Shown here: piece by piece, positions 4,199-19,857 of the stretch
Position numbering within the stretch: the first letter of the stretch is position 1
Layout of the letters: the number at the start of each line of letters is the position of its first letter
Origin: a virus
IMG/VR virus record: IMGVR_UViG_3300027734_000324
Coordinates: 1-23,452 of that record
Length of the DNA stretch: 23,452 nucleotides
Direction: 5' to 3' (one strand)
Notes under the pieces: model-generated
Databases searched by the model: none
Seen by the model: the letters and a program-made list of their open reading frames with translations, nothing else
What the model was told of the DNA's origin: nothing
Position numbers and translations under genes: made by a program

Positions 4199-7100
4199 AT
4201 GCCTCGTACAAAAATCTCGGAATTTAGCGCAACTGCTGCTAGTAACACAGACATTGATTCTATTAACATTGCTGAAGGATGCGCTCCTAGTGGTATCAAC
4301 GATGCTATTCGTGAGTTAATGAGCCAACTGAAGGACTTTCAGACAGGTGCTGTTGGCGACTCGTTTAACGGCCCTGTAGGTACATCTACGGCTGCGGCAG
4401 GTGCGTTCACTACTTTGTCAGCATCTGGTACGACTACATTGTCTGGTTTAACAGCATCTACTGCTTTAGCATTAGACGCAAGCAAGAATGTTGTTTCTGT
4501 GACCAACACAGGTACTGGTAATAATGTTTTGGCAACAAGTCCTACATTGGTAACTCCTGCACTTGGAACGCCAAGCGCATTGGTAGGCACAAACATTACT
4601 GGTACAGCTACTAGCTTTAACATCAATGGTACTGTTGGCGCTACAACTCCTACGACTGGTGCGTTTACGACTCTGAGTGCTTCTAGCACTTTGAGCGTTA
4701 CTGGTGCAGGTTCTATCCAAGGTCTGACAGTAGGTAAAGGCACAAACGCTATTACTACAAATTCAATCTTTGGTGTTGCCGCAGGATTAGATATTTCTAC
4801 TGGAAATCAAAATACAGGAATTGGATATACAGGTCTTCGTTATACAACCACAGGAAATGATAATTCTGCTGTTGGTTATAACGCAATGCAAAGTAACACT
4901 ACTGGCTCAAACAATACCGCAGTTGGTTCACAAGCATTAGTATTAAATACCACAGCCTCTAACAATACCGCAGTAGGGTATCAAGCGTTAGACTCAAACA
5001 CTACTGGTGCTACAAATACTTCGGTTGGAAGTCAGGCTCTTCAAGCCAACACTACCGCATCAAACAACACTGCTGTTGGTTATCAAGCGGCTTACGCAAA
5101 TACCACGGGTACAAACAACGTGGCGATGGGCGTTCAAGCGGGGTATGGAACTACCACAGGCTCTTACAATGCCTCTTTTGGCACAGCGGCTTTGTCTAGC
5201 AACACCACAGGCGCAAACAACACCGCCATCGGCCAGCAAGCCCTGACGTTTAATTCCACCGCTTCTAACAACACTGCTGTAGGTTATCAGGCGGCATACA
5301 GCAATACTACTGGAAGTATTACAGCATTGGGACAAACTGCTGGATATGCAAACACAACTGGAGCTTTAAATACAGCAATCGGACAAGCGGCTTTATCCAC
5401 AAATAGTACTGGTAATTACAACACTGCCGTTGGTTACACCGCACTGCAATATACAACTGGCAGTGGTAATACTGCTGTTGGTACTCAAGCCCTTAATACC
5501 AACACCACAGCATCTAACAATACTGCTGTAGGTTACCAAGCCGCATACACAAACACCACTGGTGCAAACAACGTTTCAGTAGGTCTTCAGGCTTTGTACA
5601 GCAACTCAACTGGTGCGGCAAATACTGCGGTTGGTTACTTTGCATTGAAAGCTAATACTACTGATGGCAATACCGCATTTGGATATTTAGCCGCTACTGC
5701 AACTACATCAGGCACAGCTAATGTGGCTGTTGGTCGAGAGGCGCTTGCTTCAAATACTACAGCCTCTAATAATACAGCCGTTGGTTATCAAGCTGGTTAC
5801 TCAAATGTAACAGGTGGCGCACTTACAGTTTTTGGCGATAGGGCTGGTTACAATTCTACCGCTGGTAGTAATGCAGCTTTTGGTAATGTTGTTATGTTTG
5901 CTACAACTACTGGAACTGGTAATGCTGCTTTTGGCGGTGCTGTTTCTGGCGGTAGTGAAGCAACCATGCGTTTTAATACAACTGGTTCAAACAACACCGC
6001 TTTGGGTATCAGCGCATTAGCAAGCAACACCACAGCATCCAATAACACGGCTGTTGGTTATCAGGCTCTTTACTCCAACACAACTGCCGCAGACATGACA
6101 GCCGTTGGTTGGCAAGCTGGTTACTCTGCTACTGGTACAGGCTCAACATATCTTGGTTCTTATGCTGGCAATACAACAACAGGCGTGTACAACACATTTG
6201 TTGGTCATACAGCAGGATATTTGATTACATCAGGAACTAAAAACACCATCATTGGTCGCTACAACGGCAATACTGGTGGATTAGACATTCGCACATCAAG
6301 CAACTACATCGTGCTGTCTGATGGGGATGGGAATCCACGGGGTATTTTTGATGGCTCTGGTAACTTCTCGGTAGGGACTACAAGCAACCTCGGCAACGGT
6401 TCGCGCCTCTCCGTGCAAGTAGATGGTTCTTATGGTTCTGTAGGATTCGCAAGAAACACTGACAACACATATGCTGTTGCGATGGATTACTACAAGTCGC
6501 GTGGCTCTGCCGCATCTCCGACTGCTGTTCAAAATGGCGATGATTTATATCAATTGAGATCAGTTCCTTATCAAGGGTCTGCCTATACTTATCTCAACTC
6601 AATGGTTATTCAGATTGATGGTGCATATACTTCTGGTCAAAACCCGCCCACAAGAATTTCGTGGTACACGAATACAGCAAATGGTTCTGCTACAGAGCGT
6701 GCCCGCATAGATTCGAGCGGAAATTTACTTGTTGGTTCTACAAGTAACGCACCCGCTGGTACACAATCACAAATTGTTAATAAATGGAGTGGTGGTTCTA
6801 AATGGGGTGCTTCATTTGACCAAACAGTTAGTAGCGCAACTCAATACACACATATAAACTTCAGTACCAATGGAACAACTGTTGGTTACATCAATGCAAA
6901 CAACTCTATAACAACCTACAACTCTGTTTCTGATTACAGACTAAAAACAGTTATTGGCGCTGTATCAGGCTCAGGAGAGCGTATTGATGCACTTGAGCCT
7001 ATTGAATACGAGTGGAAAGTTGATGGGTCACGCACTCGTGGTTTCTTGGCTCACAAATTCCAAGAAGTCTATGCAGGAAGCGTTAGTGGTGATAAAGACG

Positions 7101-7222
7101 CTGTAGATGCTAATGGCAATCCTGTTTATCAAGCAATGCAAGCAAGCACATCTGAAGTTATTGCAGACCTTGTTGCTGAAATTCAATCACTCCGTAAACG
7201 CCTTGCAGACGCTGGCATCTAA
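4199..7222 (+). CDS. Tail fibre with 17-residue repeat shaft and C-terminal Peptidase S74 chaperone
   Basis: AAAGGA precedes the ATG at good spacing. Residues 1-60 (MPRTKISEFSATAASN..., AEGCAPSGINDAIRELM) form an N-terminal module seen on many phage fibres and probably attach it to the virion. Residues about 60-198 are Thr/Ser/Gly-rich. Residues 199-691 are a ladder of about 29 imperfect 17-residue repeats (NTTASNNTAVGYQALxS), like the YadA-head/adhesin fold, which trimerises as a beta structure. Residues 692-910 are a beta-rich part. The end, from SDYRLK at 911-916, is an S74 intramolecular chaperone: S911 and K916 have the Ser-x4-Lys spacing of the known catalytic dyad, followed by RIDALEPIEYEW and GFLAHKFQEV. 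Self-cleavage before S911 would release about 97 residues after trimer folding. Role: host receptor binding. Confidence 0.9.
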   Translation: MPRTKISEFSATAASNTDIDSINIAEGCAPSGINDAIRELMSQLKDFQTGAVGDSFNGPVGTSTAAAGAFTTLSASGTTTLSGLTASTALALDASKNVVSVTNTGTGNNVLATSPTLVTPALGTPSALVGTNITGTATSFNINGTVGATTPTTGAFTTLSASSTLSVTGAGSIQGLTVGKGTNAITTNSIFGVAAGLDISTGNQNTGIGYTGLRYTTTGNDNSAVGYNAMQSNTTGSNNTAVGSQALVLNTTASNNTAVGYQALDSNTTGATNTSVGSQALQANTTASNNTAVGYQAAYANTTGTNNVAMGVQAGYGTTTGSYNASFGTAALSSNTTGANNTAIGQQALTFNSTASNNTAVGYQAAYSNTTGSITALGQTAGYANTTGALNTAIGQAALSTNSTGNYNTAVGYTALQYTTGSGNTAVGTQALNTNTTASNNTAVGYQAAYTNTTGANNVSVGLQALYSNSTGAANTAVGYFALKANTTDGNTAFGYLAATATTSGTANVAVGREALASNTTASNNTAVGYQAGYSNVTGGALTVFGDRAGYNSTAGSNAAFGNVVMFATTTGTGNAAFGGAVSGGSEATMRFNTTGSNNTALGISALASNTTASNNTAVGYQALYSNTTAADMTAVGWQAGYSATGTGSTYLGSYAGNTTTGVYNTFVGHTAGYLITSGTKNTIIGRYNGNTGGLDIRTSSNYIVLSDGDGNPRGIFDGSGNFSVGTTSNLGNGSRLSVQVDGSYGSVGFARNTDNTYAVAMDYYKSRGSAASPTAVQNGDDLYQLRSVPYQGSAYTYLNSMVIQIDGAYTSGQNPPTRISWYTNTANGSATERARIDSSGNLLVGSTSNAPAGTQSQIVNKWSGGSKWGASFDQTVSSATQYTHINFSTNGTTVGYINANNSITTYNSVSDYRLKTVIGAVSGSGERIDALEPIEYEWKVDGSRTRGFLAHKFQEVYAGSVSGDKDAVDANGNPVYQAMQASTSEVIADLVAEIQSLRKRLADAGI
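4793..6271 (+). repeat. Degenerate 51-bp tandem repeat array inside the tail-fibre gene
   Basis: About 29 units, most of them 17 codons (51 bp) and a few of 14-18 or 24 codons. The best conserved unit encodes NTTASNNTAVGYQA and recurs nearly unchanged at least six times, for example near 4949, 5051, 5264, 5510, 5756 and 6029. Synonymous codons differ between copies, so the protein pattern is conserved more than the DNA. Unit number could change by recombination. Confidence 0.9.
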
Positions 7223-11791: not shown

Positions 11792-12049
11792 TTAAAATGG
11801 AATATCAGAATCGTCAAATTCTTCTTGCTTAGGCTTACTTGGCTTCTTGTTTAGAGAGGCATCAGCGTTCTTATTCTTGATAGACAGAGACATAAACTTC
11901 TGTCCATCTTTGCTGATCTTAATCCAAGCGGATAGCCAGTAGTCAATGCCCTCTACATTGATACTTCCTTTGTAGTCAGGGAACTTAGCATCGTCTTTTC
12001 TATCATTCTTAAAGAGCGAGCCTCGGTTATTGTTGTCGTATTCCATCAT
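11792..12049 (-). CDS. SSB-like small ssDNA-binding protein, 85 aa
   Basis: The start ATG overlaps the stop of ERF (ATGA), and a second in-frame ATG follows. Residues 1-55 show a short beta-rich pattern (FPDYKGSINVEGIDYWLSAW, then GQKFMSLSIKNK) like the small phage proteins that resemble DUF736 or compact OB folds. The C-terminus is a flexible Lys/Pro linker ending in EEFDDSDIPF. That acidic tip ending in Ile-Pro-Phe is the signature by which bacterial SSB recruits partner proteins. With ERF directly upstream, it probably covers single-stranded DNA during annealing or replication. At 85 residues it is far shorter than cellular SSB (about 170). Confidence 0.7.
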   Translation of the reverse strand: MMEYDNNNRGSLFKNDRKDDAKFPDYKGSINVEGIDYWLSAWIKISKDGQKFMSLSIKNKNADASLNKKPSKPKQEEFDDSDIPF

Positions 12050-12657
12050 TCTTCCTTTGCTTTTTTAATTGCGCTACGCACCTTGCTTGGCATTAGTGTC
12101 CATAGTGCTACCTTTTGTTCAGAGTCTAATTTCTCGGACTCCAGCTTTACCCAAGCAGCCTTGGGGTTTCCCTGTTCGCAAGTAGCAATCAAATCAATTG
12201 CTAATTCCTCTAGGTATCGTAATTCCTCTACAGGAATAGTATCTTTTATACCCTGTGTAGGCGTGATGATAACTTGCTCTTTAAGTGGCGCAGATGAGTC
12301 CAGAGCATCGTGTTCAACGATCTCCATTGCTGTGACCCAGAGATAGCGTCTGGTGTATGTCTCGACTGCACCTAGGTTCTGGATAGGATGACAGCCCTTG
12401 AGGTTAGCTTCTGCCATTGGTGAAGTAATAACGATGTTAGTACCATCGTCTGTGTCTGTGATGGTCAGGCTTGCAATCTCGGTATCGTAGGACACTACAC
12501 CGCAAAGACCGATATTATAAAAAATCTCTGTGATTGTTGGAATAAAGTCGCCTAACTCAAAATATGAGTAGCCAGCAAACTTATTGTGGCCTGACTTCTT
12601 TAGTGGTGCTTCTTGCAGACTTATTCGTGCTGCCATTAACTTCTTGTGGACTGACAT
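12046..12657 (-). CDS. erf: ERF-family single-strand annealing recombinase, 203 aa
   Basis: AAGGA inside the end of the upstream gene serves the ATG. Residues 1-120 carry the ERF domain: KSGHNKFAGYSYFELGDFIP near the start, then IQNLGAVETYTRRYLWVTAM (93-112), the most typical stretch of the family, and HDALD. ERF proteins such as that of P22 form rings on single-stranded DNA and anneal complementary strands, allowing circularisation and recombination of the phage genome. The C-terminal part (about 130-203) is a variable helical tail. Location in a leftward early operon next to an SSB-like protein matches the P22 plan. No exonuclease gene is visible beside it. Confidence 0.85.
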   Translation of the reverse strand: MSVHKKLMAARISLQEAPLKKSGHNKFAGYSYFELGDFIPTITEIFYNIGLCGVVSYDTEIASLTITDTDDGTNIVITSPMAEANLKGCHPIQNLGAVETYTRRYLWVTAMEIVEHDALDSSAPLKEQVIITPTQGIKDTIPVEELRYLEELAIDLIATCEQGNPKAAWVKLESEKLDSEQKVALWTLMPSKVRSAIKKAKEE

Positions 12658-13027: not shown

Positions 13028-13120
13028 TCAACCCCTCCAAGCTAAAAGAACACCCCAACCACCAAAGATGATGATGGCTAACGTACACTCAACTACTGTT
13101 TGTATAATCTTACTTTTCAT
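13028..13120 (-). CDS. Tiny single-span membrane protein, 30 aa
   Basis: A perfect AAGGAG (13127-13132 on this strand) stands six bases before ATG 13120, the best ribosome site in the operon. The 30 codons encode a short basic start, a hydrophobic span (TLAIIIFGGWGVLLAW, about residues 13-28) and Arg-Gly at the end. It is the first gene of the leftward operon, directly behind the promoter at 13167-13194, so it should be among the first products made. The strong start signal is the main reason to regard it as real. Confidence 0.55.
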   Translation of the reverse strand: MKSKIIQTVVECTLAIIIFGGWGVLLAWRG

Positions 13121-13130
13121 TTGCTTCTCC

Positions 13131-13180
13131 TTAAAAAGACCCTCACGTTTTGTTTGGGCTGACTGAAGTATAGCAAACTA
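13131..13180 (-). repeat. Left copy of duplicated promoter-leader module
   Basis: Read on the minus strand, these 50 bp match 16631-16680 on the plus strand at 41 positions with no gap. They include TAGTTTGCTATACTT, the box TCAGCCCAA and the leader up to TTTTTAAGG. The distance to the start codon is also the same in both copies (10 bases). Confidence 0.85.
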
Positions 13181-13194
13181 AACAGACAGGTCAA
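13167..13194 (-). promoter_or_regulatory. Strong leftward early promoter
   Basis: On the minus strand TTGACC (13189-13194), a 16-bp spacer and TATACT (13167-13172) form a good sigma70 promoter. TGC just before the -10 adds an extended -10 element. It drives the recombination operon. A TAGTAAATA box (13199-13207) lies just upstream and recurs before the promoter at 16636-16644. Confidence 0.75.
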
Positions 13195-13198
13195 CAAT

Positions 13199-13255
13199 TA
13201 TTTACTAAGTATTTTCCCTAGTGTTGTATTTTGTTAACTAAGCTATACTGTCGGG
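13199..13255 (+). promoter_or_regulatory. Rightward promoter for a leaderless regulator mRNA, with putative operators
   Basis: TATACT (13244-13249) ends six bases before the A of ATG 13256, so the transcript should start at or next to the start codon. The -35 region (around 13221) is poor. The shared octamer GCTATACT also occurs in the leftward promoter and at 16637-16644. TATTTACTA at 13199-13207 is the inverse of TAGTAAATA found at 16615. These are candidate binding sites for the Cro-like protein encoded here. Confidence 0.5.
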
Positions 13256-13531
13256 ATGGACAAACAAACTGTTATCACACTTGCTGGCTCACAGAGTGAG
13301 CTTGCCAGAATCTTTGGCATAACAAGGGCTGCCGTCAACCATTGGAAGACAATCCCTCCATTACGCATCTATCAACTAAAAGAATTAAGGCCAGACTGGT
13401 TCAATGACTCAACTACAAGTAATACAAGCACTACAAAACGGCTCACTCACATCGAGGGAGATAGCAGAGAAAACAGGGATGACCAAAGAGACAGTTCTGT
13501 CAACGGCAAAGAAGCTACGCTACCAAGGTAA
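13256..13531 (+). CDS. Cro/YdaS-like HTH regulator, 91 aa
   Basis: The first 50 residues are a compact helix-turn-helix of the Cro/YdaS type: a first helix, SELARIFGITRAAVNHW as HTH (about 14-30), then IPPLRIYQLKELRPDWF. There is no ribosome site; the -10 hexamer ends six bases before the ATG, which points to leaderless translation. After about residue 50 the sequence turns into low-complexity Ser/Thr/Asp text (NDSTTSNTSTTKR) because the frame overlaps the next gene for 128 bases, so the folded part is probably only the N-terminus. As the first rightward gene beside the divergent promoters it is the likely controller of both. No CI-type peptidase domain is present. Confidence 0.75.
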   Translation: MDKQTVITLAGSQSELARIFGITRAAVNHWKTIPPLRIYQLKELRPDWFNDSTTSNTSTTKRLTHIEGDSRENRDDQRDSSVNGKEATLPR

Positions 13532-13781
13532 ATTGACCACAGAGCAAGTAAAAGTTGGGAATAAATGGTTAGCTAAATACACCTTAGCAGACTACATGAT
13601 TGAAGCACCTAAAGAAGCTAAAGAAGAAAAGCCTTGGGACAAGAACAATCCTTTCGATTGGCGTAATGCAAAGGGAATCTTTACATCAGATGAATACAGA
13701 GTTATGAAGCAGCAAGCCACTAGGATTTACAAAGGCAATCCATACTTTACTGATGGAATAACGAGTAATCAAAGTATCTGA
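13404..13781 (+). CDS. HTH DNA-binding protein, 125 aa
   Basis: Residues about 10-45 form a helix-turn-helix or winged helix (SLTSREIAEKTGMTKETVLS, then KKLRYQGKLTTEQVKVGNKW) like MarR or replication-accessory wHTH domains. The C-terminal half is charged, with WDKNNPFDWRNAKGIF and aromatic residues. The ATG at 13404 has only a distant AAGG; starting at the inner ATG (codon 26) would cut off the first HTH helix, so the longer form is kept. It overlaps the Cro-like gene by 128 bases in another frame. It lies just upstream of the replication protein, so it may be a regulator or helper of replication. Confidence 0.6.
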   Translation: MTQLQVIQALQNGSLTSREIAEKTGMTKETVLSTAKKLRYQGKLTTEQVKVGNKWLAKYTLADYMIEAPKEAKEEKPWDKNNPFDWRNAKGIFTSDEYRVMKQQATRIYKGNPYFTDGITSNQSI

Positions 13782-13786
13782 TACAA

Positions 13787-13823
13787 TGTTTTGAAACACG
13801 GCTAGGTGGGGGGTAGCTACCCC
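13787..13823. other. Intergenic palindromes before the replication gene
   Basis: The 104-base gap 13782-13885 holds TGTTTTGAAACA (13787-13798) and the perfect palindrome GGGGTAGCTACCCC (13810-13823). No T-run follows the second, and no good promoter is visible in the gap. They may act as an operator and an RNA hairpin controlling the replication gene. Confidence 0.35.
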
Positions 13824-13885
13824 ATCGAAAAGAGTTAACCCTTCTCCTGCCGCAGTTTCTTTCAAAGGGTGTTTAAAAAGCGGCT

Positions 13886-14656
13886 ATGCACTACTATCAA
13901 TTTCACATTGGTGACTACATGAGTCACACACGTCATCTTTCTCTTTTTGAGGATTTGGCATACAGGCGATTGCTTGATTTTTACTTTTTACATGAACAAC
14001 CAATAAAGCACAGAGATGTTGCTCGGCAGATTGGTATGCGTGAGCATGAAGAAGATGTTTTAACAGTCCTCAATGAGTATTTTCTTTCTACGCCAGAAGG
14101 ATTTGTTAATCCAAGGGCTGACAAGGAAATAAAGCAGTACAAAGAGTTCTCTGCGGCTGGAAAGCGTGGGGCGGCCAAGAGGTGGGGAACACCCCCTGAT
14201 GGGGAGGCTATTAGCCCCCCTAATGCTACCCCAATAGCAACCAATAACCATAAACCATTAACCATAAACCAAGAACCAAATATATCTATATGTCCACCTA
14301 GCGGTGAACTTGAAGACGCAAAAATTCCAAAATGTGAACATCAGTCAGTCATTGATATGTATCACAAGTATCTACCAACTCTGAGAAAGGTAGAAGTATG
14401 GAATTCTGCTAGACAGGGATACTTGAGACAGAGATGGCGTGAGGTGGCTATCGAGTTGTCAAAAGAAAAAGACATTACTGCTGGCGACATTCTTACTTGG
14501 TTTGCAGACTTCTTCCAGCACATTGGAGCATCTAAGTTTTTGACAGGTAAGGTCAATAGCAAAGATGGTAGAGCATTTACTGCGGATTTAGAGTGGATTT
14601 TGAAGCCAAGCAATTTTGCAAAAATCGTTGAAGGAAAATATCATGGCACTAACTAA
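13886..14656 (+). CDS. DUF1376 phage replication initiation protein, 256 aa
   Basis: Residues 1-90 are a typical DUF1376 domain (YYQFHIGDYMSHTRHLSLFE, then DLAYRRLLDFYFLHEQPI), a winged-helix-like module of phage replication proteins. Residues about 95-145 are a low-complexity linker (GTPPDGEAISPPNATPIATN). Residues 150-250 form a second helical domain ending in FTADLEWILKPSNFAKIVEG, the usual end of phage replisome-organiser proteins. The layout resembles lambda O: an origin-binding N-terminus, a linker whose DNA carries repeats, and a C-terminal partner domain. It probably binds the repeats at 14239-14280 and recruits the host helicase. The ribosome site is weak. No helicase gene is seen next to it. 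Confidence 0.75.
   Translation: MHYYQFHIGDYMSHTRHLSLFEDLAYRRLLDFYFLHEQPIKHRDVARQIGMREHEEDVLTVLNEYFLSTPEGFVNPRADKEIKQYKEFSAAGKRGAAKRWGTPPDGEAISPPNATPIATNNHKPLTINQEPNISICPPSGELEDAKIPKCEHQSVIDMYHKYLPTLRKVEVWNSARQGYLRQRWREVAIELSKEKDITAGDILTWFADFFQHIGASKFLTGKVNSKDGRAFTADLEWILKPSNFAKIVEGKYHGTN
14184..14292 (+). other. Putative replication origin: hairpins, 7-bp iterons and AT-rich segment
   Basis: Two G/C hairpins come first: GGGG/CCCC at 14184-14195, and 14201-14220, where GGGG-A-GGCT pairs with AGCC-CCCC around ATT. Then six tandem 7-mers of consensus AACCAWN run from 14239 to 14280, followed by an A/T-only-like segment (TATATCTATATG, 14281-14292). The order of repeats then easily melted DNA inside the replication gene is the plan of the lambda origin. 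Assignment as origin is inference. Confidence 0.55.
14239..14280 (+). repeat. Six tandem 7-bp iterons
   Basis: Six consecutive heptamers all begin AACCA and vary only in the last two bases. Within them the 12-mer TAACCATAAACC occurs twice, at 14245-14256 and 14259-14270. They encode the linker residues around NNHKPLTINQEP of the replication protein. Confidence 0.8.
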
Positions 14657-14861
14657 TTTCAAGAATCAGCAAGTTGAGTCTAGTTTTGATAAAAATTTAT
14701 GTTCTGCAGGTGGATGCAATAACTGGTGGACAGTAAAGATTGACAAACCTAAATGCTCATTCCATCAATGGGAAAGCGATGCAAAACCTAGAGCCGCTAA
14801 GTTGCCTGAATTAAAAGAAAAGACTGTGGCGCAATGGTATGACGACAGAGAGGTTTTTTAA
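14643..14861 (+). CDS. Small Cys/His protein, putative zinc binder, 72 aa
   Basis: The start is taken at 14643, where AAGGA stands at good distance; the frame is open further upstream but lacks such a site. Residues 20-41 contain CSAGGCNNWW and PKCSFHQW, so C20, C25, C38 and H41 could form a zinc site. The rest is charged. It overlaps the end of the replication gene by 14 bases and its TAA overlaps the methyltransferase ATG (TAATG), so all three are coupled. A role in replication is suggested only by position. Confidence 0.6.
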   Translation: MALTNFKNQQVESSFDKNLCSAGGCNNWWTVKIDKPKCSFHQWESDAKPRAAKLPELKEKTVAQWYDDREVF

Positions 14862-15787
14862 TGAACACGATTGAATTTGGAGATTGCAGAGAAACAATGC
14901 GTAAATGGACTAAACAAGGAGTTAAGGCACAAACTTGTGTAACTAGCCCTCCTTACTTTGGTTTGCGTGATTATGGACACGAAGGACAAATAGGTCACGA
15001 GGAAACACCAGAAGAATTTATTAAGCAATTGGTTGAAGTTTTCCGATGTGTCTGGGATGTGCTTGAGTATGATGGAACTTTGTGGGTAAACATGGGTGAC
15101 AGTTATTGCAACACAAATGGTTTTGCTAGAGCTAGTCCAGAATATCAGCGTGAGGGAAGAAACAATATGCCAGCCAATGATAGAAAACTGGACAAGCTAC
15201 ACGCTACTGGACTAAAAACTAAAGACTTAATTGGTATTCCTTGGATGCTTGCATTTGCACTAAGAGCAGACGGATGGTATTTGCGTCAAGATATCATTTG
15301 GCATAAACCAAATCCAATGCCTGAATCAGTACAAGACCGATGCACAAAATCTCACGAATACATTTTTTTGTTAAGCAAATCTCACAAGTATTATTTTGAC
15401 CATGTAGCTATTAAAGAGCCAGTTAAAGAAGATTGGGGCACTAGAGATAGAACAAATGGTAAATATCACAATGAAGGAACAGGCTTGCAACCCCACTCTG
15501 GGTTAGAAAAATCTTATGAAATGGCAAATAAACGAAGTGTTTGGACTGTAAATACAAAGCCTTATAAAGGAGCGCACTTTGCAACATTTCCTGAAGATTT
15601 GATTGAGCCTTGCATCCTTGCTGGAGCACCAATTGGAGGAATTGTTTTAGACCCATTTATGGGAAGCGGAACTACTGCACAAGTTGCTCAAAACCTTGGA
15701 AGACAATATCTTGGTTGCGAATTAAATCCTGAGTATGAAAAATTACAAAAGAAAAGAACAGCACAAACATCGTTGGATTTTGTATGA
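14861..15787 (+). CDS. DNA methyltransferase, beta class (N4-cytosine or N6-adenine), 308 aa
   Basis: The protein starts with a typical MNTIEFGDCRETM segment, followed by TSPPYFGLRDYG (SPPY at 29-32, motif IV) and, near the end, DPFMGSGTT (264-272, the SAM-binding motif I). Motif IV before motif I marks the beta class. SPPY is most common in N4-cytosine enzymes but also occurs in N6-adenine ones. The segment between holds the target-recognition region. It has no partner restriction gene, so it is an orphan phage enzyme that probably protects phage DNA from host restriction. It sits in the early replication block and is coupled to its upstream neighbour. Confidence 0.85.
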   Translation: MNTIEFGDCRETMRKWTKQGVKAQTCVTSPPYFGLRDYGHEGQIGHEETPEEFIKQLVEVFRCVWDVLEYDGTLWVNMGDSYCNTNGFARASPEYQREGRNNMPANDRKLDKLHATGLKTKDLIGIPWMLAFALRADGWYLRQDIIWHKPNPMPESVQDRCTKSHEYIFLLSKSHKYYFDHVAIKEPVKEDWGTRDRTNGKYHNEGTGLQPHSGLEKSYEMANKRSVWTVNTKPYKGAHFATFPEDLIEPCILAGAPIGGIVLDPFMGSGTTAQVAQNLGRQYLGCELNPEYEKLQKKRTAQTSLDFV

Positions 15788-15814
15788 ACGAATTTAACTG
15801 GAACACAAAAGAAA

Positions 15815-16030
15815 ATGACACCAGAAGAATTGGAACACTTCAAGGACTGCGAAGCGAAAGAGTGGCTGAGACGCTACCAAGCCAAAAAATTGACGAATGG
15901 CTCAAAGAAAGCGTTAAGTTGGTGGCAGGGTGTGTTAGGGGACTTGGAACGAATCAGAGGCGTGTACGCTACTTTGGATTTGAGACAACGAATGAACAGG
16001 ATTCAAAATGAGACGAGCCGCAAGAGTTGA
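15815..16030 (+). CDS. Small conserved-type phage protein, 71 aa
   Basis: Two frames compete here. This one has the better protein character: CEAKEWLRRYQAKKL, then KKALSWWQGVLGDLERIRG and LRQRMNRIQ, a helical pattern with paired Trp and a final Arg-Met-Asn that I recall from small phage proteins. The other frame (15784-16011) starts at an ATGA junction but reads like translated noise. Its stop overlaps the nuclease gene by 23 bases. Ribosome site is weak (AAAAGAAA). Function unknown; possibly nucleic-acid related because of its neighbours. Confidence 0.6.
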   Translation: MTPEELEHFKDCEAKEWLRRYQAKKLTNGSKKALSWWQGVLGDLERIRGVYATLDLRQRMNRIQNETSRKS

Positions 16031-16274
16031 TGCAAACCAAGAGCAGATAGTCTCAGCCCTGAGAGCCGCTGGCGCATATGTCTGGATTATTGGCCTACCT
16101 GTTGATTTGCTGGTTGGCTACAAGAATCACACCTTTCTGGTTGAAATAAAAATAGACTCTAAAAAGCGTTTAACGAAGCTACAAGCAGATTTTTTCGAAA
16201 ATTGGTCTGGTAGCACCTTGGCAAGAATAGATAGCCCAGAAGCGGCAATAAGAATGATCGGAGTAGTCAAGTGA
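16008..16274 (+). CDS. VRR-NUC-type nuclease, 88 aa
   Basis: AGGA six bases before the ATG supports the start. The domain carries the PD-(D/E)xK pattern of the VRR-NUC group: D33 in GLPVDLLVGYK, then E46 and K48 in HTFLVEIKIDS, followed by LTKLQADFFENW with the conserved Gln (Q59). The small size fits stand-alone phage VRR-NUC proteins, some of which resemble Holliday-junction resolvases. It lies in the replication block, and resolving recombination or replication branches before packaging would suit a phage with ERF. The substrate is inferred, not shown. Confidence 0.8.
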   Translation: MRRAARVDANQEQIVSALRAAGAYVWIIGLPVDLLVGYKNHTFLVEIKIDSKKRLTKLQADFFENWSGSTLARIDSPEAAIRMIGVVK

Positions 16275-16603
16275 AAGCACCCTACAAAGCCATCGAATAC
16301 ATCATTGAAAACGCACCAAAGTATGCTGAAGCTAAAGCGCAAAGAATCTATCTTGAGGAGTTTCGCAAAACAAAGAAGGCTCTCTTAATGAAGGAAGCGT
16401 TAGCCAAAGGGATAGATTCTGCCGTTGCCCAAGAGAGAGAAGCCTATGCGCATATCGAGTACGCTGATCTACTAAAGGGATTGATGGCTGCTGTTGAAAA
16501 AGAAGAAACCTTAAAGTGGATGCTCATTGCGGCTCAGATGAAGGCTGACATTTGGAGATCAGAGCAAGCAAGTGAGCGAGTTGGCGTAAAAACTACGGAG
16601 TAG
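16271..16603 (+). CDS. Conserved phage early protein, helical, 110 aa, GTG start
   Basis: The GTG overlaps the TGA of the nuclease gene (GTGA). The protein is almost wholly helical: YAEAKAQRIYLEEFRKTKKA, then AQEREAYAHIEYADLLKGLM and LKWMLIAAQMKADIWRSEQA. I recognise the pattern from unnamed early proteins of many phages of Gram-negative bacteria, often next to a VRR-NUC gene. No enzymatic motif is visible. Tight coupling to the nuclease suggests a common process in DNA metabolism. It is the last gene before the second promoter module at 16604-16690. Confidence 0.65.
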   Translation: MKAPYKAIEYIIENAPKYAEAKAQRIYLEEFRKTKKALLMKEALAKGIDSAVAQEREAYAHIEYADLLKGLMAAVEKEETLKWMLIAAQMKADIWRSEQASERVGVKTTE

Positions 16604-16614
16604 GTATAAACACC

Positions 16615-16644
16615 TAGTAAATACTTTGTTTAGTTTGCTATACT
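16615..16644 (+). promoter_or_regulatory. Extended -10 promoter, twin of the leftward early promoter
   Basis: TGC-TATACT (16636-16644) is an extended -10. No acceptable -35 lies 16-18 bp upstream, unlike the leftward copy. The box TAGTAAATA (16615-16623) is 11 bp closer to the -10 block than in the leftward promoter, about one helical turn. It should drive the gene at 16691 and its coupled followers. Confidence 0.6.
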
Positions 16645-16680
16645 TACGTCAGCCCAAGCAATTCGCAAGGGTACTTTTAA
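16631..16680 (+). repeat. Right copy of duplicated promoter-leader module
   Basis: It matches the minus strand of 13131-13180 at 41 of 50 positions without gaps, from TAGTTTGCTATACTT to TTTTAAGG. The two copies face each other across the regulator-replication block. It ends 10 bases before ATG 16691, as the left copy does before its own start codon. Confidence 0.85.
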
Positions 16681-16690
16681 GGGAAAAATT

Positions 16691-16933
16691 ATGAGCACAT
16701 GGGAATTTGATACGACAACAGGCCAAGGTAGCGAAGTTGTTAAAGTTGTTTACGACTACGAGTCTGACGAAGATGGAACTTACAACGAGTCAATCATTGA
16801 AGTCTGGTTTGAAGGCAGAGATGTTGTAGGTTTGTTTTCTGACGAGCAGATGAAGGAATTAGAGATTGAGGCGGCTATGCGTTTTAGAGAGCATAAGCAG
16901 AACTACAAATATACAGAAGAATACGTAGAATGA
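16691..16933 (+). CDS. Small acidic hypothetical protein, 80 aa
   Basis: AAGGGAAAAATT precedes the ATG. The first half is beta-like and acidic (GSEVVKVVYDYESDEDGTYN, then SIIEVWFEGRDVVGLF), the second half helical (EQMKELEIEAAMRFREHKQN). It is the first gene behind the promoter at 16636-16644 and so is expressed under the same control as the leftward operon. It is coupled by ATGA to a zinc-ribbon-like miniprotein. No family recognised. Confidence 0.6.
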   Translation: MSTWEFDTTTGQGSEVVKVVYDYESDEDGTYNESIIEVWFEGRDVVGLFSDEQMKELEIEAAMRFREHKQNYKYTEEYVE

Positions 16934-17547: not shown

Positions 17548-17597
17548 AACTCAGTTGCCATTGAGTTTTTAGAGAGTCTTGTACTCTCTTTTTTTTT
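17548..17597 (+). terminator. Strong intrinsic terminator with tandem hairpins
   Basis: AACTCA (17548-17553) pairs with TGAGTT (17562-17567). Then AGAGAGT (17571-17577), a 5-nt loop and ACTCTCT (17583-17589) are followed by eight T (17590-17597). The second hairpin is a textbook rho-independent terminator and closes the early rightward block. Confidence 0.9.
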
Positions 17598-17607
17598 ATG
17601 AGATAAT
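17579..17607 (+). promoter_or_regulatory. Possible promoter overlapping the terminator
   Basis: TTGTAC (17579-17584), a 17-bp spacer and GATAAT (17602-17607) precede the gene at 17631. The -10 matches five of six consensus bases and the -35 three of six. The -35 lies in the terminator loop and stem. It would restart transcription for the packaging genes. Confidence 0.4.
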
Positions 17608-18636: not shown

Positions 18637-19857
18637 ATGACACAAAATCGTAAATTAGAATGGCGTTCAGTATCTACATTGATTCCTTACGCTAGGAACT
18701 CACGCACACATTCTGATGAACAAATTGCCCAGATAGCGGCAAGCATTAAAGAGTTTGGGTGGACTAACCCGATTCTTATTGATGGCGACAACGGCATCAT
18801 TGCAGGTCATGGCAGACTTTCTGCTGCCCGTAAGCTAGGACATGAGGAAGTTCCAGTTATTGAGCTAAAAGACCTAACCGAAACCCAACGTAAGGCTTAC
18901 ATCATTGCCGACAACCGCCTAGCGTTAAACGCAGGGTGGGACAATGAAATGCTGACCATTGAGTTAAACGACTTGATTACTGATGGGTTTGCTTTAGACA
19001 TATTAGGGTTTGACCCTAAAGAGCTAAACGCATTGCTTGAGCCAGAAGTTGTTGTTGGTTTAACTGACGAAGATGATGCGCCAGCCTTACCTGAAGAACC
19101 AAAGACTAAGCTGGGCGACATTTATCAACTTGGAAAGCATCGTTTAATGTGTGGAGACTCTTGCAGTGTTCACGACATGGAAAAACTATGCAATGGTCAA
19201 TTGGTTGATATGTGGTTAACAGATCCACCTTATAACGTGGCTTATGAGGGAAAAACAAAAGACGCATTAAAAATCCAAAATGACAGCATGGAAGATGACC
19301 AATTCCGACAATTCTTGCGAGATGCTTATGTAACTGCCGACTTGGTAATGAAGCAAGGTGCTGTTTTCTATATTTGGCATGCTGATTCAGAAGGTTACAA
19401 CTTTCGAGGTGCTGCACAGGATGCTGGATGGAAAGTGCGTCAATGTTTGATTTGGAAAAAGTCTAGTATGGTTATGGGTAGACAAGACTATCATTGGAAG
19501 CATGAACCATGCCTATATGGATGGAAAGAAGGTGCTGGACACCTTTGGGCGACAGACAGAAAACAAACAACCATTTTGGAGTTTGAGAAGCCATCTCGCA
19601 ATAAAGAACATCCAACAATGAAGCCTGTTGCCCTATTTGAATACCAAATGCTTAACAATACAAAGGGTGGCGACATAGTATTAGATTCATTTGGTGGTAG
19701 CGGCACAACATTAATGGCGGCAGAAAAGCATGGTCGGCATGGGTACTTAATGGAGTTAGACCCAAAGTATTGCGATGTGATTGTAAATCGATGGGAAGAT
19801 TTTACAGGCAAGAAAGCCGTGTTAGTGAACGCTAACGAAGAACTTTCGGAGATATAA
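18637..19857 (+). CDS. ParB-like/DNA methyltransferase fusion, 406 aa
   Basis: GGGAG lies upstream of the ATG. Residues 5-130 are a ParB/Srx-type domain (VSTLIPYARNSRTHSDEQI, then GHGRLSAARKLG at 57-68). Residues 160-395 are a beta-class methyltransferase: DPPYNVAYEG (DPPY at 196-199), HPTMKP (325-330) and SFGGSGTTLM (motif I, 351-360). DPPY favours N6-adenine. The fusion is common in phages and mobile elements. The ParB part may bind CTP or DNA and guide methylation; this is not established for this protein. It touches the small terminase gene with no spacing, so it is co-expressed with packaging genes. It differs from the SPPY enzyme at 14861. Confidence 0.9.
   Translation: MTQNRKLEWRSVSTLIPYARNSRTHSDEQIAQIAASIKEFGWTNPILIDGDNGIIAGHGRLSAARKLGHEEVPVIELKDLTETQRKAYIIADNRLALNAGWDNEMLTIELNDLITDGFALDILGFDPKELNALLEPEVVVGLTDEDDAPALPEEPKTKLGDIYQLGKHRLMCGDSCSVHDMEKLCNGQLVDMWLTDPPYNVAYEGKTKDALKIQNDSMEDDQFRQFLRDAYVTADLVMKQGAVFYIWHADSEGYNFRGAAQDAGWKVRQCLIWKKSSMVMGRQDYHWKHEPCLYGWKEGAGHLWATDRKQTTILEFEKPSRNKEHPTMKPVALFEYQMLNNTKGGDIVLDSFGGSGTTLMAAEKHGRHGYLMELDPKYCDVIVNRWEDFTGKKAVLVNANEELSEI

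Follow-up and report, generated by a model that had tools for sequence, protein, structure and literature searches.

A promoter-leader cassette present twice in opposite orientation, with a covarying 5' hairpin, in a lineage of freshwater phages

The stretch studied here, positions 1 to 23,452 of IMG/VR virus record IMGVR_UViG_3300027734_000324 (hereafter the window, 23,452 nucleotides in all), carries two copies of a promoter-leader cassette on opposite strands, each composed of a TAGG...CCTA palindrome, an extended -10 element (TATACT), a leader of 34 nucleotides (nt) and a Shine-Dalgarno (SD) sequence. A preliminary description of this DNA had noticed a match at 41 of 50 ungapped positions, from the -10 region through the leader, ending in both cases 10 bases before a start codon; direct reading gives the same count (minus strand 13180-13131 against plus strand 16631-16680), with ATG codons at 13120 (minus) and 16691 (plus), each 10 bases past its 50-nt stretch, and the shared parts are present as stated (TATACT, TAGTTTGC and TCAGCCCAA). 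These stretches belong to a longer repeat of 56 nt with 84% identity (13129-13184 and 16627-16682), the longest of 74 inverted pairs in the window, which is well above chance level in a blastn comparison within the record (E = 1.1e-12); blastn, run on this record only, found no third copy in the 23,452-base IMG/VR contig.

The left cassette lies on the minus strand. It begins with the palindrome TAGGGAAAATACTTA (13206-13220), a putative operator separated by 33 nt from the -10 element, and continues with a promoter (13167-13194) formed by TTGACC (13194-13189), a 16-nt spacer and the extended -10 element TGCTATACT (hexamer at 13172-13167). The leader TCAGCCCAAACAAAACGTGAGGGTCTTTTTAAGG (13129-13162) has its predicted start at A13160 and a hairpin at 13159-13139, directly followed by the SD sequence; it scores 51.3 bits (E 2.3e-9) with the covariance model described below, and its hairpin is seen in the fold and in the covariation of relatives. 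The first gene behind it (13028-13120) encodes a hydrophobic peptide of 30 amino acids, MKSKIIQTVVECTLAIIIFGGWGVLLAWRG, whose family is the commonest left cargo in relatives (33 left sites). Further along the operon, protein matches identify an SSB-like protein and an ERF annealing protein (11792-12657, minus strand), which fits the leftward recombination operon of the preliminary description. Divergent from the left cassette is a cro-like regulator gene (13244-13531, plus strand; P22_Cro, E 7.6e-9), with a -10 element TATACT 6 nt before its ATG. Because the cro ATG sits 5-6 nt past its -10 element, as in 73 of 89 relatives, its mRNA is predicted to be leaderless and to lack the hairpin element.

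The right cassette lies on the plus strand, with the palindrome TAGGTATAAACACCTA (16601-16616), also a putative operator, 22 nt from an extended -10 element TATACT (TTTGCTATACT; 16639-16644) that has no good -35 element; this promoter was not among the promoter-prediction matches in the window, whereas the left one was. The leader TCAGCCCAAGCAATTCGCAAGGGTACTTTTAAGG (16649-16682), with a predicted start at A16651 and a hairpin at 16652-16672, scores 56.5 bits (E 1.1e-10), and the same sequence occurs in 84 of 110 distinct right sites. The first gene of this operon (16691-16933) encodes a protein of 80 amino acids that belongs to the largest right cargo family and gave no match in Pfam or PHROG. 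A composite terminator-promoter ends the operon (17569-17607, plus strand), consisting of AGAGAGTCTTGTACTCTCT and a T run, with a -35 element TTGTAC in the hairpin and, 17 nt on, a -10 element GATAAT (17602-17607). This arrangement is conserved in 76 right loci, 0.6-4.1 kilobases (kb) past the right leader; the stem covaries across relatives (AGAGGG/CCCTCT, AGAGAG/CTCTCT, AGAGGGG/CCCCTCT), and the next promoter keeps its -35 element (TTGTNC) within the hairpin loop, with GATAAT 17 nt on. Because the conserved hairpin and T run close it at that distance, the right operon is a cargo slot with fixed ends; what had been called the 16691 gene set is better named a variable cargo operon, ending at the conserved terminator-promoter. 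A tie of the leader to the 16691 gene itself was ruled out, homologs of this gene being found in a second phage group without the leader.

The leader is a covarying RNA hairpin without a listing in Rfam: in release 15 the window gave no match at gathering score, and the 3 kb surrounding the right copy gave none with E allowed to reach 5. On an alignment of 33 leaders, which was also the source of the covariance model, the leader measures 34-37 nt and contains one single hairpin of 21 nt. Its stem, (G/A)CCC-N(N) / (N)N-GGG(U/C), is followed inward by an internal loop rich in A and then by two further base pairs that close a loop of five bases; the folds of individual leaders agree with this consensus. 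In the alignment, 95.7% of cells are paired, and double-changed cells number 21, against 7.9 +/- 2.8 in shuffles (none of 500 shuffles reaches this count); when the partner column is slid by 1-3 positions, pairing falls to only 20-35%. Variation at the column pairs comprises AU, GC and UA (8-23), AU, GC and GU (11-19), and CG and AU (12-18), while the basal position holds G-U, all 4 exceptions having A-C.

The hairpin keeps a fixed place with respect to promoter and gene. The distance from the -10 element to the sequence TCA is 4 nt at 184 sites and 5 nt at 17 (71 of 71 left and 130 of 135 right sites), and the spacing holds for the hexamers TATACT, TACAAT, TACACT and TAGAAT alike; therefore, the first transcript nucleotide is predicted to be the A of TCA, adjoining the stem one base before it, at A13160 (minus) and A16651 (plus). 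After the hairpin come a U-rich stretch and the SD sequence, TTAAGR being followed by ATG 6-10 nt on in 202 of 203 contexts; the unpaired probability of the SD sequence is 0.69, compared with 0.60 with shuffled leaders, and that of pairing in the stem is 0.92. The leader is kept where the promoter sequence is replaced. Covariation, the lock to the predicted start and this persistence bear out the earlier suggestion of selection on the RNA 5' end. A function as attenuator or terminator was ruled out, since a T run after the stem is missing in many leaders (e.g., GGGTAATTAAGG and GGGCAATTAAGG) and the SD sequence and ATG follow directly.

The leader is present in more than 100 viral contigs from freshwater. 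Searches of IMG/VR with the cro-like protein and the 16691 protein yielded 118 loci, left and right sites being assigned with cro genes located by tblastn, and the right-leader pattern alone recovered at least 119 stretches; an exact 25-base promoter-leader pattern, which was too strict, had no IMG/VR match. On 79 sources the covariance model gave 139 matches (all E < 2e-5), with a maximum of two per source, one on the minus strand upstream of cro and one on the plus strand further right. Both copies are thus detected across the cro relatives: the right cassette lies 2-4 kb from the left one on the opposite strand in relatives with enough flank, and the second, opposite-strand copy is present for 47 of 47 distinct right sites whose upstream flank reaches 6 kb or more. 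No cassette match was obtained among INPHARED phages, and phage Venkman and three Manatee Spring phages gave no real match to the model.

The two leaders of one genome resemble each other no more closely than leaders taken from different genomes do (p 0.83), with no sign of homogenisation, and the recent duplication considered in the preliminary description did not stand; recent duplication and gene conversion were both ruled out on this ground and by the presence of both copies throughout the lineage. Sister lineages, whose loci were collected with the replication protein, give weak covariance-model matches at the left position only. They were also scanned without regard to sequence, for a -10 element, a stem beginning 6-10 nt later, an SD sequence and an ATG. 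Such a leader was recognized in 40 of 65 left regions, whereas the opposite strand gave 0 and Markov shuffles gave 3.6; since the arms were picked by folding, this is not an independent test of covariation, and the evidence is the contrast with the controls. Pair counts exclude a MAFFT alignment that took in these leaders, since its 3' arms were misaligned. Their stems are strongly diverged (GCCG/CGGU, CCUC/GAGG, or the simple GCCCCGAACUUCUUGGGGU), so that shape and position are conserved across the sister lineages and sequence is not. At the sensitivity of the scan a right copy is absent from them (2 of 46, versus 5 of 46 on the control strand). Because the sister lineages have only the left hairpin, the left element is best regarded as ancestral and the right copy as an old, lineage-specific duplication in the window's lineage, presumably kept by selection.

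The palindromes suggest a further bond between the two operons. One of the TAGGGWAARYACCTA type stands upstream of 87 of 89 left and 93 of 110 right promoters, compared with 2.9% of random 70-mers, and 96 of the 98 strict copies in 902 kb are at cassettes (exceptions with variant leaders counted by eye). Most palindromes stand 22 or 32-33 nt from the -10 element and a few 42-43 nt, successive distances differing by roughly one turn of the helix; centres near -42, -52 and -62, as these distances imply, would be as suitable for a factor in contact with polymerase as for a repressor. The palindrome is probably the binding site of one regulator common to both operons, and the common control proposed earlier holds at the level of sequence, and at that level only, as a TAGG-N-CCTA palindrome that precedes both promoters and is almost absent elsewhere. 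In the second phage group with 16691 homologs (L089-L120), which lacks the leader, TAAGGGTAAGTCCCTATT-like palindromes resembling the cassette operator were seen in gene spacers. Separately, the right-promoter spacer of loci L026, L036, L047, L057 and L069 contains a TCAACAAAGTGTTGA-type palindrome like one in some cro promoters, possibly a Cro site.

The genes behind the leaders are varied. First genes fall into 24 families, 10 of which are found at both sites (6 if only two-leader contigs count). In association tests that ignore phylogeny, left promoter class shows no dependence on first-gene family (z 0.9, p 0.17), whereas leader type is associated with the gene (z 7.5-10.4) and, more weakly, with the promoter (z 4.7-6.6). 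With the leader linked to both promoter and gene, and these two independent of each other, the exchange junction appears to lie at or near the leader; recombination within the common leader sequence could swap cargo between phages and between the two sites. Promoter and gene would thus reassort across the leader, and the cassette looks like a standard docking point for gene exchange.

Taking these findings together, we consider it moderately probable that the leader is a 5'-terminal hairpin with two roles, protection of the transcript end and presentation of the ribosome site, within a shared, co-regulated promoter cassette that serves gene shuffling. This reading is favoured because position and shape are conserved beyond sequence, an SD sequence comes next in every case, and the downstream gene can be exchanged. 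The extended -10 promoter would give a transcript starting at the A of TCA, and the leader would immediately form a hairpin, leaving about one nucleotide free at the 5' end; the U-rich stretch and the SD sequence would come next. Given that RppH and RNase E are hindered by 5' structures (PMC3997798), a hairpin capping the 5' end of early mRNAs may hinder 5'-end-dependent decay of the RppH/RNase E type; by keeping the SD sequence accessible, it would allow any gene behind the leader to be expressed from entry, and both operons would respond to the same regulator via the upstream palindromes. Several points weigh against the protective hairpin: single-sequence folding is only modestly better than in shuffles (z -0.5 to -2.4); the unpaired A's at alignment columns 10, 20 and 21 are nearly invariant in the window's lineage, which exceeds the needs of a plain protective stem; the association tests leave phylogeny aside; and both start sites are inferred positions, the host's decay machinery being assumed.

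The near-invariance of those unpaired A's within the lineage leaves some probability for a protein or polymerase target, and we tentatively entertain, as possible yet doubtful, that the leader is not a passive stem but a regulatory RNA of a new class, a single hairpin anchored to the start site, which would bind either RNA polymerase or a dedicated factor and coordinate the two early operons of these freshwater phages. A site for a trans-acting RNA-binding protein, of phage or host, coordinating translation or decay of both operons, is rather unlikely: the near-invariant A's and CCC/GGG core, the isosteric wobble exchange of G-U for A-C at the basal pair and the regulon-like sharing of one element by two operons all speak for it, but the sister lineages retain place and shape while losing loop, internal loop and core sequence, some having plain stems, and no candidate RNA-binding gene was identified. 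Less likely still is an antitermination element, put- or nut-like, through which the nascent RNA would modify RNA polymerase so that both operons are read through terminators. HK022 has such a layout in putL and putR, two similar RNA elements that each open one of two opposed early operons, putL lying just downstream of PL, and a strong conserved terminator ends the right operon studied here; however, the put RNA has about 70 nt and two stem-loops (PMC9378689), unlike the 34-37-nt leader with its single 21-nt hairpin fused to an SD sequence on the 3' side. Moreover, terminator detection in 15 genomes gave few past the left leaders, leaving none evident on the left to suppress, read-through is not needed where the right terminator has its own downstream promoter, and the conserved SD spacing is no requirement of antitermination. 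By inspection, no octamer resembling the boxA consensus CGCTCTTA was found in the leader list, and at most one nucleotide lies between predicted start and stem, unlike nut sites, where boxA precedes the boxB hairpin. Selection at the DNA level only, on a duplicated promoter and operator with the leader hitch-hiking, would account for the conservation of palindrome, extended -10 element and helical spacing in themselves, but is very improbable in view of the compensatory changes within the leader and its retention behind replaced promoters. A recent duplication or gene conversion inside this phage, despite the 84% identity of the copies, is hardly credible when own leaders are no more alike than those of different genomes and both copies are lineage-wide.

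Among known systems, the promoter early stem-loops (PeSLs) of T4-type phages, the subject of work by Arbiol in 2010 and by Comeau in 2014, are reportedly small cassettes of promoter and stem-loop, common to several loci and associated with the exchange of nonessential early genes; their stem-loops are reportedly transcription terminators and occur at high density. The present cassettes likewise join a sigma70-type early promoter and a stem-loop in one small unit. In contrast to PeSLs, the leader stem-loop is no terminator and is located inside the 5' untranslated region (UTR), downstream of the promoter and fused to the SD sequence; and instead of many copies in shuffling regions there are exactly two, with no third match in the loci searched. 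As for modular gene shuffling, the indirect evidence would fit: 6 to 10 families stand behind both copies, and promoter and gene appear reassorted. Closer to a PeSL than the leader is the terminator-promoter at 17569-17607, whose stem-loop is a terminator. With ompA-type stabilising hairpins the leader shares a position at the extreme 5' end, few unpaired 5' nucleotides (by the predicted start) and a following SD sequence; unlike them, it belongs to phages, is portable and duplicated, stays conserved across many genomes and is joined with a shared operator. The opposed early promoters with similar operator sites around a cro-like gene recall lambda pL and pR, but the second cassette lies 3.4 kb beyond cro, past the replication block, and cro is predicted to be leaderless, without the element.

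These results add an unlisted and well-supported RNA element for an abundant, almost uncultured group of freshwater phages, and suggest a concrete mechanism by which hypervariable early genes could be exchanged, yet each receive a working promoter, 5' UTR and regulator site. They also make testable the general question of whether start-site-anchored hairpins serve phages as portable expression heads. Since each of two variable cargo operons begins with the leader, new small host-takeover genes may be collected from metagenomes by leader search.

With respect to the host, the nearest TerL sequences are those of a Manatee Spring phage (63%) and Methylophilales phage Venkman (61%), followed by HTVC010P-type pelagiphages (about 46%), and the guanine-plus-cytosine content of the window is 41-44%; no bacterial genome had the leader pattern or a close TerL. 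A betaproteobacterial host is plausible. Elsewhere in the window, the DUF1376 replication gene is otherwise diverged, yet it contains a 46-base stretch (14238-14283) 97.8% identical to two Acinetobacter phages. Two DNA methyltransferases are encoded at 14861-15787 and 18637-19857, the second fused to a ParB-like N-terminal domain, and a protein of 1007 amino acids (4199-7222), with repeats at multiples of 51 nt, is probably a tail appendage.

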